Shown here one piece after another: positions 7,183 to 64,000 of a stretch of DNA of 64,000 nucleotides (position 1 is the stretch's first letter; each line of letters opens with the position of its first letter). Both the position numbers and the translations under genes were made by a program. A model generated the notes under the pieces. That model had not been told where the DNA came from. It did not search any database and was given only the letters and a program-made list of their open reading frames with translations. Source of the DNA: Pseudomonas furukawaii (GTDB taxonomy: Bacteria > Pseudomonadota > Gammaproteobacteria > Pseudomonadales > Pseudomonadaceae); assembly GCF_002355475.1 (NCBI RefSeq), contig NZ_AP014862.1, positions 1,550,001-1,614,000 on the forward strand. The letters run 5' to 3'.

Positions 7183-8604
7183 ATGAACCAGTCGAAACTT
7201 TCGCTCGCCGAGAAGGACGTTCAGCATCAGCTCCACCCGTACACCGATGCCCGTGTCCACCAGGAAGTGGGGCCGCTGATCATCGAGCGTGGCGAGGGCG
7301 TATACGTCTTTGACGACCAGGGTAAGCGCTATGTCGAGGCGATGTCGGGTCTTTGGAGCGTTGCGCTGGGCTTCAGCAACGAGCGCCTGATCAAGGCCGC
7401 TGAACAGCAATTGCGCAAGCTGCCGTTCTATCACCTCTTTAGCCATAAGGCGCATAGCCCCAGCATTGAGCTCGCGGAGAAGCTGATCGAAATCGCGCCT
7501 GTGCCAATGAGCAAGGTCTTCTTCACCAACTCCGGGTCGGAAGCCAACGATACCGTCGTCAAGATGATCTGGTATCGCAACAACGCGATCGGCAAACCGA
7601 CCAAGAAGAAGTTCATCAGTCGTCTGAATGCATACCACGGCATCACCACTGTTAGCGCCAGCCTCACCGGGTTGCCGGCGAACCAACGTGGTTTTGATGT
7701 TCCGTTGTCGGGTTTCTATCACGTTGGGTGCCCGCACCACTATCGCTACGCCAAGCCGGGGGAAACTGAAGAGCAGTTTGCCGATCGCCTCGCGGCAGAA
7801 CTGGAAAGTGTCATCCTCCGAGAAGGCCCGGAAACCATTGCGGCGTTCTACGGTGAACCCCTGATGGGTGCGGGCGGTGTGATCGTGCCTCCGCGTACCT
7901 ATTGGGAAAAGATCCAGGCGGTATGCAGCAAGTACGACATCCTAGTGGTCGCCGACGAGGTCATCTGTGGCTTCGGTCGTACAGGCAAGATGTTCGGCAG
8001 TGAGACCTTTGGCATCAAGCCGGACGTCATGGTTGTCTCCAAACAGTTGTCGTCCTCCTATCAACCCATCGCGGCCATCCTGATCAACGACAAAGTCTTC
8101 GAAGGTATCGCCGATCAAAGCCATACCATGGGTACTCTCGGGCACGGGTTTACTGGTAGCGGTCACCCGGTTGCTACCGCCGTAGCCTTGGAGAACATCA
8201 GGATCATCCAAGAAGAGCACTTGGTCGAGCATGCTGCCGAGATGGGGGAGTTGCTTCAGGCTGGCCTGGCTCACTTCTCGGAGCACCCATTGGTAGGGGA
8301 AGTGCGTGGCTGTGGTCTGATCGCCGCAGTGGAGCTGGTCGCGGATCGCAAGACCAAGGCCCCCATGGATGTGGTTGGCAAGTTGGGCCGTTACCTGGCT
8401 GGCCGCGCGCAGGAGCACGGCATGATCACTCGGGCGATGGGGGATTCAATCGCGTTCTGTCCGCCATTGATATCCACGAAAGCGGAGATTCAACTGGTAT
8501 TGGATACCTTCAGCCGTGCGCTTGACGACACCGACCGCTGGTTCGGTCTGGGCTACAACCAAAGCCTTTGGCACCAGTGGGAAGGCTACACCCACAAGTC
8601 CTGA
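7183..8604 (+). CDS. Class III omega-aminotransferase (SpuC-like)
   Basis: A 473-residue PLP aminotransferase of the omega-amino-acid/putrescine:pyruvate group. The PLP lysine is Lys287 (VVSKQLSSS), and VVADEVICGFGRTG carries the ring-contacting Asp. ATG 7183 is chosen because ACGGAG lies 9 nt upstream; an upstream in-frame start overlaps gabT. Relatives transfer amino groups from diamines, beta-alanine or amino alcohols to pyruvate. Two aminotransferases in one operon suggest that one acts on a terminal amine before KauB and the other (GabT) on GABA. Exact substrate unknown. The operon ends at the terminator just downstream. Confidence 0.85.
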   Translation: MNQSKLSLAEKDVQHQLHPYTDARVHQEVGPLIIERGEGVYVFDDQGKRYVEAMSGLWSVALGFSNERLIKAAEQQLRKLPFYHLFSHKAHSPSIELAEKLIEIAPVPMSKVFFTNSGSEANDTVVKMIWYRNNAIGKPTKKKFISRLNAYHGITTVSASLTGLPANQRGFDVPLSGFYHVGCPHHYRYAKPGETEEQFADRLAAELESVILREGPETIAAFYGEPLMGAGGVIVPPRTYWEKIQAVCSKYDILVVADEVICGFGRTGKMFGSETFGIKPDVMVVSKQLSSSYQPIAAILINDKVFEGIADQSHTMGTLGHGFTGSGHPVATAVALENIRIIQEEHLVEHAAEMGELLQAGLAHFSEHPLVGEVRGCGLIAAVELVADRKTKAPMDVVGKLGRYLAGRAQEHGMITRAMGDSIAFCPPLISTKAEIQLVLDTFSRALDDTDRWFGLGYNQSLWHQWEGYTHKS

Positions 8605-8662
8605 TATCGTCTGGCCCGAGTAATCGAGCCCGTGTGACTGTCACTCAGTCATCCACGCTTAT

Positions 8663-8685
8663 CCCCGCATATGCGGGGCTTTTTT
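8663..8685 (+). terminator. Rho-independent terminator of the amine operon
   Basis: Self-complementary CCCCGCATATGCGGGG (8663-8678) followed by C and six T. It closes the rightward operon and is the apparent landing site of the adjacent group II intron. Confidence 0.88.
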
Positions 8686-8687
8686 GG

Positions 8688-9140
8688 GTGCGCCCGGCAG
8701 GGCGCACCCACTCAGGGGTGAAAGTCCCCGACACACCCGGCAAGGGGAAGTGTTAGCCGGAGGCAAGGGTGGCGCGGGCGACTGCGCATCTGAAGGAAGC
8801 CCGAGGCAAAGCGCTGGCCTGACGAACAGGAAGCGGATACGAGGCGGCATGGCGGGGTAAGCAGTCCAAAATCTGTGAAGCCCGATACTTGCACGGAACG
8901 CCATGACGTATATCCGACAGGCATAAGCGTGAAAGTGGGTGCGCCATACCCGGGGAGATCTGCATCGCTGCCAGCAATGGCTACCGGAACCGAGAGGTGC
9001 CGGGATGGCGCTGCAGAAGTCAGCAGAGGCCATAGTAGGTGCCGGCACGGGCTGAAGGGCCGAACGATTAATGCCGAGAGTAGGACGATTGACCTCGACG
9101 AACCACAACGACGCAGGAGTCCCTTATCAGGGAGCCAGGC
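8688..9140 (+). mobile_element. Group II intron fragment (5' ribozyme part, no reverse transcriptase)
   Basis: The sequence begins with GTGCGCCC, a bacterial group II intron 5' end, and continues with typical domain I segments such as GTGAAAGTCCCC, GGCAAGGGGAAGTGTTAGCC and CAGAAGTCAGCAGAGGCC. It starts 2 bp after the T-tract of an intrinsic terminator, the preferred site of class C introns. No reverse-transcriptase/maturase reading frame follows and no complete domain V hairpin is seen; a lone GAGCCGTGT occurs near 9565. The element is therefore a decayed or internally deleted intron. Its 3' limit is uncertain. Confidence 0.75.
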
Positions 9141-9164
9141 ATAAGCATGGCCGTGAGCTACGCC

Positions 9165-9536
9165 GGTTGGCCAAATCCATGGACGATATCCGCAAGGAAT
9201 TGGCTGCCTTCATGGCATCGGCGGCAGGGGAAAACCTCTTCGTCTATGGGATCACGTCGGGGGGAAGGGGAGATGCATTGGCCATCCATAATGATCGTCC
9301 ACTGGCTCAGAAATGCCGAGAGTGAATGCGCTCGAGAGGGATGGACATGCCTGCCAGATGCCATTCGCTACATCCAGGCGCGAAACCCAGCTCCAGGCCC
9401 CAAGAAATATGGCTGTTCCAGCTGGCGACAAATCCTCCATGAAGCGAGAGTGTTCGAAATGGAGAAGCGTACGGACAGTTCCTCTGGGGCGACTGTCGCC
9501 TGGTACCGGAGCAGGCTCTCCGCGCTCTCAAATTGA
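9165..9536 (+). pseudogene. Broken gene with OST-HTH/LOTUS-like C-terminal domain
   Basis: From about 9300 to 9536 one frame encodes EGWTCLPDAIRYIQ, then KKYGCSSWRQIL and ARVFEMEKR, ending in WYRSRLSAL. This resembles the OST-HTH/LOTUS RNA-binding fold that follows NYN/PIN nuclease domains. The upstream part (about 9165-9320, MDDIRKELAAFMAS and FVYGITSGGRGDALA) reads in another frame and stops, so a frameshift or junction seems to lie near 9300. No NYN domain is visible. A remnant joined to the intron fragment is the simplest explanation. Domain recognition is by eye. Confidence 0.4.
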
Positions 9537-9795
9537 AGGGCCAAATAGCGCTGCATAGGTGATGGAGCCGTGTAGGGCAGTCAGGGACGAAATGGAGAGA
9601 AAGGCCACCAAGATGGTCGCCAACAGGAGTCTGGACTCCCGTTGGCATCAGTTTGTTGAGCTTGAGAGTTTGTTCGACTACTCAGTGACCTACCGTAAGA
9701 TGCCGCTCCAGGTGGCCTGGTAGTTACCCCAGATAAAGGTTCGAACCCACTCTGGGACGCCATTCTCACGCCGCTCCGGCTACCTTTCCCATCGC
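9537..9795. other. Non-coding stretch with two hairpins
   Basis: No gene seen. One hairpin pairs CCAACAGGAGTC (9619-9630) with GACTCCCGTTGG (9633-9644). The other pairs CCCAGA (9728-9733) with TCTGGG (9751-9756) around the palindrome GGTTCGAACC (9738-9747). The second may terminate the leftward AraC gene or mark the island junction. GC rises to the host level just after it. Confidence 0.45.
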
Positions 9796-10617
9796 TCAAC
9801 CCTGTGCCAGCAGCCATTCCCGTGGGCTCGACCCGGTCTTGCGGCGGAATGCCCGTGCCAGCGCCGAAGGGCTTTCATAGCCCACGGCGTCCGCCACGTG
9901 GGGGATGGGTCTGCCGTCGCGGAGCAGCTTCTGCGCCAGGCCCACCCGCCACTGCACCAGGTAGTCGGCCGGGGTCTGCCCGGTCACTTCACGGAAGTGC
10001 GCGGCGAAGGCGGCGCGGGACATGCTGGCGGCGCTGGCCAGTTCGGCCACCGTCCAGGGGTGTTTCGGGTCCTCGTGCATCAGGTTAAGGGCCCTGGACA
10101 GGCGTGGATCGGCCAGGCCCGCCAGCATGCCCGTGGCAAGGCCGCGATGGGCCAGCAGATGGCGTAGCAACTGGATCACCAGCAATTCGAACAGGCGGTC
10201 CATCACCGCACGGCGGCCGCATTCCTCGCCAAAGGCCTCGGCGAACAACCAGTCCAGGTTGCCCGCCAGCAGCGGCACGTCCTTGAGCGGCAGCACCAGG
10301 TAGTCGGGCAGTGCGCCGGCCAGCGGATTGCCCGAGGCGCCGCCGAACGCCAGGGTGGCGCACACCAGCCGGGTACCGTCGCCCTCGGCGGACTCCAGGC
10401 GGTGCGGGTAGGGGCGGGGGAAGAACGCCAGGCTCGGCTCCTCCAGCGACCAGTGGCTGCCGTCGCCCATGCGCAGGCCCACTCGTCCTCCCTGCAGCAG
10501 GTGCACATGGCCGCTGTGGCCTTCCTGGCCAAAGGCCTCCAGGCCGCAGAAGGCACCGCTGAAGAAGGTACCGGCCTGGACGCCGAAGTGCCCCAGCAGG
10601 ACGGAAAGTCGATCCAT
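9796..10617 (-). CDS. AraC-family transcriptional regulator with N-terminal cupin
   Basis: A 273-residue regulator. The N-terminal half is a cupin-like sensor (AraC_binding_6 style; HVHLLQGGRVGLRM), and the C-terminal 100 residues hold two AraC helix-turn-helix motifs (TVAELASAASMSRAAFAAHF and HVADAVGYESPSALARAFRR). ATG 10617 follows AGAGGAG at good spacing; longer frames lack a ribosome site. Relatives often sit divergent to a small oxidoreductase or carboxymuconolactone-decarboxylase-like gene, and only a stub of such a gene remains at 10754. Effector unknown. Confidence 0.88.
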   Translation of the reverse strand: MDRLSVLLGHFGVQAGTFFSGAFCGLEAFGQEGHSGHVHLLQGGRVGLRMGDGSHWSLEEPSLAFFPRPYPHRLESAEGDGTRLVCATLAFGGASGNPLAGALPDYLVLPLKDVPLLAGNLDWLFAEAFGEECGRRAVMDRLFELLVIQLLRHLLAHRGLATGMLAGLADPRLSRALNLMHEDPKHPWTVAELASAASMSRAAFAAHFREVTGQTPADYLVQWRVGLAQKLLRDGRPIPHVADAVGYESPSALARAFRRKTGSSPREWLLAQG

Positions 10618-22856: not shown

Positions 22857-23049
22857 GTGGTCCCTGGGCGGCGTGCTGCTGAGCCCCTTTCTGATCTATG
22901 CCCTGCTGGCGCTGCTGCTGACCGGCGTGCTGCGCCTCGGGCTGGCCCGGTTCGGCGCGTCACGCTGGATCTGGCACGAAGCGCTGTTCGACTGTGCCCT
23001 GTATGTCTGTGTCCTGGCGGCGCTGGTGGCGCTGGCCGGGCGCTGGTGA
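22843..23049 (+). CDS. DUF1656 small membrane protein (AaeX-like)
   Basis: A 68-residue protein with two hydrophobic segments (LLSPFLIYALLALLLTGVL and ALYVCVLAALVALAG). AGGAGG precedes ATG 22843 and the gene overlaps the FUSC stop by 14 nt. Small DUF1656 proteins such as AaeX accompany AaeB pumps; their role is not known, and assembly of the pump is a reasonable guess. Confidence 0.88.
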   Translation: MGLREWSLGGVLLSPFLIYALLALLLTGVLRLGLARFGASRWIWHEALFDCALYVCVLAALVALAGRW

Positions 23050-63055: not shown

Positions 63056-63116
63056 TGTAGGAGCCGGCTTGCCGGCGAATCGCACGGGCCCTTTCGCGAG
63101 CAAGCTCGCTCCTGCA
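63056..63116 (+). repeat. REP/REPIN element, intact copy
   Basis: TGTAGGAGCCGGCTTGCCGG begins a REP, and TCGCGAGCAAGCTCGCTCCT is the inverted partner, ending TGCA. This is the standard paired Pseudomonas REP. A second copy follows about 17 bp later. Confidence 0.9.
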
Positions 63117-63132
63117 ACGGGGTCCGGAATCC

Positions 63133-63187
63133 TGTAGGAGCCGGCTTGCCGGCGAATCGCACGGGCCCTTTCGCGAGCAAGCTCGCT
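63133..63187 (+). repeat. REP/REPIN element, copy interrupted by IS110-type element
   Basis: Identical to the previous copy through GCGAGCAAGCTCGCT, where the expected CCTGCA is replaced by TGTATGTCG. The break marks the probable left end of the insertion element. Confidence 0.85.
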
Positions 63188-63200
63188 TGTATGTCGTAAG

Positions 63201-63375
63201 GTGGGTCTGTCGGGGGTGGAGGGACTGAGCTCGCTTCTGCAAGACAGACGGTAGGAGAACTCCCCCACTCCTGGCTCACGACAAGCGCCGATAAGGAATC
63301 CATCGACTCGAGTAGCCGCTCGAGATCGACCATATCTGCAAGCCTGCGCACAGGTGAGCCCCCCGACAGACTCAT
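63201..63375 (+). ncRNA. Candidate IS110 bridge RNA (about 175 nt)
   Basis: GTGGGTCTGTCGGGGG (63201-63216) pairs with CCCCCGACAGACTCAT (63360-63375), a 16-bp closing stem with two G:U pairs. Inside are a loop region at about 63217-63275 carrying GCTCGCTTCTGCA (63229-63241) and GTAGGAG (63251-63257), both close to REP sequence, and a second stem region CTCGAG...CTCGAG (about 63307-63323). IS110-group elements encode such a two-loop RNA in the leader, one loop for target and one for donor; IS621's is about 177 nt. Assigned by structure, not expression. Confidence 0.65.
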
Positions 63376-63399
63376 TCATCTTGTCGGCCGGAATCGCAC

Positions 63400-64000
63400 A
63401 TGACAACCCAATCCCCCATCATCGGCATCGACGTGGCCAAGGACAGCCTGAGCCTGTATCGCGCCGACCTGGACCAGTACTGCACCCTGGACAATGACGC
63501 CCGCAGCATCCGCGCCTGGCTGAAGACGCTCCCCGGCGACTGTGCCTTGGCAGTGGAAGCCACCAGCACCTATCACGTGCAGCTCGTCGACCTGGCCCAT
63601 GCGCGTGGTCATCGCCTCTATGTCATTGATGGCTATCGCCTGAGCAATTACCGCAAGGGCATCGGTGGCCGCATCAAGACCGACGCCAGCGATGCCCGTC
63701 TACTGGCCCGTTATCTGGCCCACGAACAGGCCCAACTGCGGGTCTGGCAACCCGCCGGCAAGGCTTACCGGCTGCTGCAAAGCCTGCTGCGACGCCGGGC
63801 GACGCTGATCCGCAGTGCCACGGCGCTGCGCCAGAGCTTTGGCCATGACACCCAGTTCAAGGTGTCGATGAAAGCGGCGCTCAGCTCCCTCAAGCGCCTG
63901 GAGCAGCGCCTCGATCAGGACATTGCCCAGGCCTTGAAGGACGCTGGCCTAGCCGAGCAGGCCAAGCGTTGCCGGGCCATTGAAGGCATCGGCCCGCTAA
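63400..64000 (+). CDS. IS110-family transposase (partial, C-terminus outside window)
   Basis: The first 200 residues of a DEDD recombinase. MTTQSPIIGIDVAKDSL gives the first catalytic Asp (residue 11), VEATSTYH the Glu, and KTDASDARLLARYL the paired Asp residues of the RuvC-like domain. The Tnp_20 serine-containing domain should follow past the window edge. ATG 63400 lies 25 nt after the closing stem of the candidate bridge RNA. It works with that RNA in DNA recombination. Confidence 0.92.
   Translation, partial: MTTQSPIIGIDVAKDSLSLYRADLDQYCTLDNDARSIRAWLKTLPGDCALAVEATSTYHVQLVDLAHARGHRLYVIDGYRLSNYRKGIGGRIKTDASDARLLARYLAHEQAQLRVWQPAGKAYRLLQSLLRRRATLIRSATALRQSFGHDTQFKVSMKAALSSLKRLEQRLDQDIAQALKDAGLAEQAKRCRAIEGIGPL

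Follow-up and report, generated by a model that had tools for sequence, protein, structure and literature searches.

The 64,000-nucleotide (nt) stretch of the Pseudomonas furukawaii genome analysed here and called the window (contig NZ_AP014862.1, positions 1,550,001–1,614,000, forward strand) ends within an insertion sequence (IS) of the IS110 type. The element sits inside a repetitive extragenic palindromic (REP) sequence and carries a leader that is predicted to encode a bridge RNA. It spans positions 63188–64353 (1166 bp, plus the CT core), with the left portion (63188–64000) in the window and the right end, at 64353, outside its 64 kb. A non-coding end of 212 nt precedes the recombinase gene, and a short downstream end of 9 nt separates the stop codon from the core. 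The features of the insertion site and the gene are as follows:

63056–63132, plus strand: intact 77-bp REP-containing repeat unit, differing from the re-joined broken unit at 2 of 77 bases
63133–63187, plus strand: left-hand piece of the broken REP unit, with the left target ...AAGCTCG-CT at its end
63186–63187, plus strand: left copy of the core dinucleotide CT, identical in all eight genomic copies
63188–63193, plus strand: left end of the element and right donor, TGTATG, where the sequence shared by all eight genomic copies begins
63400–64000 (in-window part), plus strand: IS110 recombinase gene, 314 amino acids, with its stop at 64344 outside the window, assigned by the Pfam domain DEDD_Tnp_IS110 and a match to the IS621 structure
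64354–64355, outside the window: right copy of the core dinucleotide CT

The in-window part of the protein contains PF01548 (DEDD_Tnp_IS110; E 2.4e-20), and both PF01548 and PF02371 are listed for a 99% identical protein. Two solved structures match it: IS621 (8wt6; E 7.8e-22) and the ISCro4 recombinase (E 1.1e-19). The catalytic residues named for IS621, D11, E60, D102, D105, and S241 (PMC11208158), align with D11, E53, D95, D98, and S233 here, residue numbers in the structure chain being 2 higher than those of that publication. Among the best 120 of the 2011 protein matches obtained at E ≤1e-40, two (56% and 58% identity) were named ISPpu10 by a source. A search of the host genome gave one further match, at 29% identity, beside eight near-identical copies. 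A high-identity element is present in 1 of 18 genomes of the genus, that of this host, the others having matches of ≤43% identity or none, and E. coli genomes and plasmids yielded no close DNA relatives. Outside the window, the host also carries at least five distant IS110-type matches (L125–L128 and L009; 29–31% identity), four of them alike in score.

All eight copies of the element in the host genome lie in REPs, at the same base and in the same orientation, with CT at both junctions. A preliminary description of this DNA, made from its letters, had placed the insertion directly after ...GCTCGCT, with CT as core, and this junction is confirmed: the left flank reads ...GCTCG-CT, with the core at 63186–63187, the bases after the newly located right end are CT-CCTAC, and 8/8 genomic copies share the left junction TTCGCGAGC(A/G)AGCTCG-CT and the right junction CT-CCTAC. 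None of the copies, which that description had proposed to compare, lies outside a REP. When the flanks of the copies are re-joined, an ordinary REP results. Judged by this comparison, the intact adjoining repeat (63056–63132) is the in-window equivalent of an empty target site. An exact empty site was not obtained from the congeners: with the joined flanks of one copy as query, one or both flanks matched in 16 other genomes of the genus, the REP-containing part of the query was unmatched, and in some cases a sizeable gap separated the flanks (about 1.4 kb in G013 and 0.6 kb in G005).

A site shared by eight copies would be uninformative on targeting if a single insertion had been spread by duplication of a REP array. 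The REPs of the host are partly arranged in tandem arrays, and the flanks of copies L004 and L007 are similar. Beyond the REP, however, the flanks differ among most of the eight copies, and relatives show the same pattern with other guides, making this explanation extremely improbable.

Guides in the leader and their targets

In the published IS621 rule, the left guide has the top-strand sequence of the left target including the core, and the right guide that of the core and right target in reverse complement (PMC11208160, PMC11208158). The leader contains the following features, its target guides being read by this rule:

63201–63216, plus strand: closing stem, 5' strand
63217–63224, plus strand: proposed stem of the target-binding loop, 5' strand, read by eye as pairing with 63261–63267 with one bulged A
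63227–63235, plus strand: left target guide GAGCTCGCT, matching the left target at 9/9 positions in two copies and at 8/9 in six
63251–63257, plus strand: right target guide GTAGGAG, reverse complement of CTCCTAC in 8/8 copies
63261–63267, plus strand: proposed stem of the target-binding loop, 3' strand, read by eye
63273–63279, plus strand: stem of the donor-binding loop, 5' strand, GGCTCAC
63293–63300, plus strand: probable left donor guide AAGGAATC, matching the left donor ATAGAATC at 6/8 positions by eye
63334–63342, plus strand: probable right donor guide ATCTGCAAG, with 8/9 bases equal to IS621 ATTTGCAAG
63354–63359, plus strand: stem of the donor-binding loop, 3' strand
63360–63375, plus strand: closing stem, 3' strand, with the start codon 24 bases downstream

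In the six copies with 8/9 left-guide positions, the single difference is a possible G-T wobble; the first guide base, G, suits both REP variants, pairing with C or by wobble. The right guide pairs with CTCCTAC across the junction, where the IS621 model predicts it. Shuffling the mononucleotides of the leader 20,000 times gave a 9/9 match to either target variant in 33 cases and GTAGGAG in 282; a single shuffle had both.

The preliminary description had drawn attention to a 13-nt stretch one mismatch away from the REP end. The match exists (GCTCGCTTCTGCA at 63229–63241; GCTCGCTCCTGCA in the adjoining REP, one base different), but its interpretation as a single 13-nt guide was ruled out: the linker TC(T/C)G directly follows the left guide in 23/23 aligned leaders despite their differing guides. 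The match is thus partly coincidence, since only its left part is guide and the rest is conserved linker. Likewise, GTAGGAG is present in the first loop as described, but it corresponds to the right target half in reverse complement and not to the REP start.

As the probable right donor guide agrees with IS621 ATTTGCAAG at 8/9 bases, the interrupted pairing with CTTGTAT, described for this guide in IS621 (PMC11208158), could form here too. Relatives were located by the end sequences themselves (CTTGTATG and ATAGAATCT), whose bases are thus shared by selection. TGTATG in relatives, found with CTTGTATG as anchor, is accordingly not independent, and co-variation of the donor guides would be uninformative.

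The target guides can be compared with their targets across relatives, which comprise 14 loci in named genome records and elements found at E ≤1e-60 in 26 of 398 genomes of the family and 6 of 390 of the order (both counts including this genome), with up to five copies per genome scored in the family and order searches. After removal of 21 rows with <45% identity, 16 duplicates and 9 rows without a recognised end from 113 tblastn rows of ≥150 residues, 67 copies (8 here and 59 in relatives) with 15 left-guide classes remained. Over these classes the left guide agrees with its own target at a mean of 5.93 of 7 non-core positions, vs. 3.32 for permuted pairs, with 0/20,000 permutations as high; per copy (n = 67), agreement is 7/7 in 32, 6/7 in 22, 5/7 in 6, and 4/7 in 7. 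The right guide is exact in 67/67 copies, 51 having GTGGGAG with CTCCCAC and 16, eight of them the copies here, GTAGGAG with CTCCTAC. Extension to the order, with eight additional loci, gave 20 classes and 5.90 vs. 3.27 permuted (0/20,000 as high).

In an anchor-free scan of 41 distinct leader–target pairs, the left guide emerged as the best 9-mer in 37, as the sole best one in 27 of these, and the right guide emerged as the best 7-mer in 39. Concerning the two right-guide misses, L011 is an artefact of the pattern, an earlier GTAGGAG in its leader having been taken while its own GTGGGAG pairs exactly, and L135 is real. On the tree, A-type and G-type right guides are intermingled: L011 (G) falls in a well-supported group with L054 and L010 (A), and the placement of L072 (A) beside L064 (G) is weakly supported. 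Because of this mixing, agreement between right guide and target seems to have arisen more than once.

Two sets of relatives deserve separate mention. At L058 and L090, a relative is inserted in CCCTCTCCCTAACCCTCT-CCCAC, which by eye is not REP-like, and its left guide matches at 4/7 positions; this could possibly represent a change of target. At L075, L120, and L122, all from genome G396, the left guide AGATCCGCT agrees with the sites GGGGCCGCT and AAGCCCGCT at only 4/7 positions, the right guide being exact.

Guide class and REP abundance

Four patterns served to count exact sites of REP classes in 12 genomes, and in the host the sister arm was counted as well; the pairs of classes were picked after the insertion sites had been seen, and reversed-pattern controls gave 0 to 5 matches per genome. 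Besides the insertions, the host contains 98 further exact AGCTCGCTCCTAC sites (reversed control 0) and 182 sites of the sister REP arm AGCCGGCTCCTAC, with the same right half (reversed control 1). All eight insertions are in the AGCTCGCTCCTAC class and none is in the sister arm (P 3.4e-4 vs. random choice, treating the eight copies as independent, which L004 and L007 with their similar flanks may not be). The CTCCTGC variant, with 9 sites (reversed control 1) vs. 98 for CTCCTAC, is too lopsided to test the right guide.

The guide-matching class was counted in eight genomes, and in four of these it is the rarer of the two classes, yet holds most insertions. One is the host, where it holds 8/8 (single-host P 3e-4). 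In G157, with 93 guide-type and 233 other sites, four of the five scored insertions are in guide-type sites, one in a related site and none in the other class (P 7e-3). G364, whose guide matches its class at 6/7 positions, has 39 guide-type and 514 other sites, and again four of five scored insertions are in the guide-type class, one in a related site and none in the other (P 4e-5); the P values for G157 and G364 omit the one copy in each that lies in neither counted class. In G252 (43 guide-type vs. 368 other sites), four of five scored insertions are guide-type and one is in the other class (P 7e-4). For G244, G262, G383, and G573 the counts did not include the guide's own class. Within genomes, we regard these class counts as the strongest evidence that the site is set by the RNA instead of by the abundance of REPs.

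These data also bear on the idea that the recombinase protein alone recognises REP hairpins, the likeness of leader and REP being coincidence or captured REP sequence. REPs are palindromic, and five IS families have been reported to target them (PMC1525189), as such a protein-only mode would allow. It does not account for the co-variation of guide and flank over 15 guide classes, for the choice of the guide-matching arm over the sister arm of the same repeat, or for the insertions of G157, G364, and G252 being mostly in the rarer REP class; moreover, at the position predicted from IS621 lies a right guide that is reverse-complementary to the right target half. Recognition by the protein alone is therefore very unlikely, and guidance by the leader RNA is preferred.

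Predicted structure of the leader RNA

The preliminary description had proposed a 175-nt leader closed by a 16-bp stem, and this stem is real: 63201–63216 (GTGGGTCTGTCGGGGG) and 63360–63375 (CCCCCGACAGACTCAT) pair over 16 consecutive positions, including two G-U pairs. Copies L006–L008, three of the eight in the genome, have A in place of G at 63204, which converts a closing-stem G-U pair into A-U. RNAalifold, run on a plain sequence alignment of 23 leaders, recovered seven closing-stem pairs in 23/23 leaders, a cap stem in the first loop in 21 to 23, and the stem of the second loop in 22 to 23; it also placed a small hairpin over the right guide. A single-sequence fold pairs the region 63217–63224 slightly differently.

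Conservation of the closing stem in relatives, which the preliminary description had made a test of its reading, holds for most of the inner part: nine named pairs are largely kept in the 23 leaders. Two pairs in the middle do not form in 8 and 9 of these leaders. The nine pairs are formed in 91.8% of cells, vs. 83.6% in shuffles (0/500 as high), six of the nine show compensatory changes on both sides, and pairing falls to 50–55% when the partner is slid by one base. One of five measures, the number of further pair types, gave no excess (6 vs. a shuffle mean of 6.6).

With the 3' strand of the closing stem 24 nt ahead of the start codon, the leader could mainly be a 5'-untranslated-region regulator of the recombinase gene, target choice being made elsewhere. 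In ISPpu9, tnp expression is controlled by two small RNAs and a structure in the 5' untranslated region (PMC8450116). Such regulation would leave the co-variation of guides and flanks unexplained, and the two roles can co-exist; as the main function of the leader it is hardly credible, and a guide-bearing bridge RNA remains the favoured reading.

Several order-level relatives have a 5' hairpin plus a 3' strand able to form the closing stem. In the leaders of L131–L133, L018, and L070, the 5' hairpin strand and the 3' strand near the start codon may compete for the middle strand; in L070, by eye, a base change is compensated by the 3' strand and not by the 5' strand. With 5'-hairpin labels assigned by eye from single folds, the tree requires two changes of label, which we read as two losses of the hairpin. 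It is conceivable, if rather doubtful, that this clade lost the 5' stem-loop of the bridge RNA twice, that the closing stem replaced it, and that in relatives with both structures alternative foldings switch the transcript between bridge RNA and recombinase mRNA. The supply of guide and of protein would then be coupled.

Proposed mechanism and comparison with known systems

Taken together, the data make it very probable that this is a complete IS110-group element whose leader encodes a bridge RNA steering insertion into one REP class, at one base and in one orientation. The evidence best supports what the preliminary description had suggested, RNA-guided targeting of REPs by an IS110 element with a CT core: 8/8 copies are in REPs, and the inner stem is conserved in relatives. 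By analogy with IS621, the element would be excised as a circle, the RNA encoded by the 212-nt leader would be expressed from the joined ends and would then bind the recombinase. The first loop would read the target, the second loop the element's own joined ends, and the recombinase held by the bridge RNA would exchange strands at CT through its serine. The element could thereby enter a single REP class at one base in one orientation.

Several observations weigh against this mechanism. Across the joined ends, the putative promoter hexamers read by eye are weak (TAGACA-17 bases-TAAGGT, agreeing with sigma-70 at 5/6 and 3/6 positions). The left donor guide matches its donor at only 6/8 positions, the proposed outer stem of the first (target) loop was not found by RNAalifold in the 23 leaders, and a separate IS621-type 5' stem-loop is absent, replaced by the stem joining the 5' and 3' ends of the leader. 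The eight copies may not all be independent insertions, given the similar flanks of L004 and L007. G297, G346, G237, and G320 are uninformative hosts, since their guide-matching class is the more abundant of the two. Among relatives, the left guide matches poorly (4/7) in 7 of the 67 copies (L058, L090, L073, L075, L114, L120, and L122) and at 5/7 positions in six others; three of the seven, copies of the one element of G396, are hidden in the class test, having the same guide string as a well-matching element. Of the eight additional order-level loci, four (L131 and L136–L138) pair GTGGGAG with CTCCTAC through a G-T wobble, and the right guide of L135 is another one. Finally, the nine rows excluded for want of a recognised end include five copies of one element (G152).

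Two other features of the window may be noted. At 8772–9060 there are two strong matches to group II introns, RF02001 and RF01998, each over the full model. No open reading frame (ORF) of ≥200 amino acids was found around them at 8605–9795, and at 8500–9800 no further RNA family matched at E 0.1; the region is perhaps an ORF-less or truncated group II intron. Positions 22867–23001 give a full-length match to the Pseudomonas small RNA P18 (RF01671).

Knowledge of REP-specific IS110 elements dates back to at least 2006 (PMC1525189), that of bridge RNAs and seekRNAs to 2024 (PMC11208160, PMC11187229). The guide-directed principle itself is thus already published, and the element is new within that kind, adding a compact REP-targeting bridge system to those known. 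Together with its relatives it constitutes a natural experiment, in which the rarer REP class in several hosts would be struck because the guide matches it; it also offers a ready set of guide–target pairs, some with tolerated mismatches or wobbles, on which the natural retargeting of bridge recombinases could be tested. In a limited literature search, no paper weighing guide class against REP abundance was found; a search for "bridge RNA" with "ISPpu10" gave nothing beyond PMC11208160, and none of the papers on "REPIN" with "IS110", judged by titles and abstract openings, was about bridge RNA.

By sequence, the element appears to be near ISPpu10. All copies of ISPpu10 and ISPpu9, IS110-family elements of Pseudomonas putida KT2440, likewise occupy a single base position in REPs and show a 2-bp direct repeat (PMC1525189). 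Their sequence differs, and the target here is the GCTCG-CT-CCTAC class of the host. ISPpu10 is one of six elements with a bridge RNA drawn in PMC11208160, where Durrant et al. inspected its boundaries and drew the predicted guides. Like the IS110-type seekRNA elements (IS1111/IS110, e.g., ISEc21 and ISPa11), the element has its non-coding region upstream of tnp (PMC11187229). In the IS1111 type, unlike here, the RNA lies downstream and the order of guides is reversed, and ISEc21 has a shorter processed RNA (PMC11187229).

With IS621 of E. coli the element shares a recombinase of the DEDD and serine type, the CT core, a REP target, the same order of guides in the leader RNA, and a probable right donor guide differing at 1/9 bases, at about 29% protein identity. 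IS621 (locus L129) has a 5' stem-loop, lacks the closing stem, and its gene begins immediately downstream of the donor loop. At 7 nt, the right target guide of the present element exceeds the 4 nt of IS621, and right target guides longer than that of IS621 have already been reported (PMC11208160).
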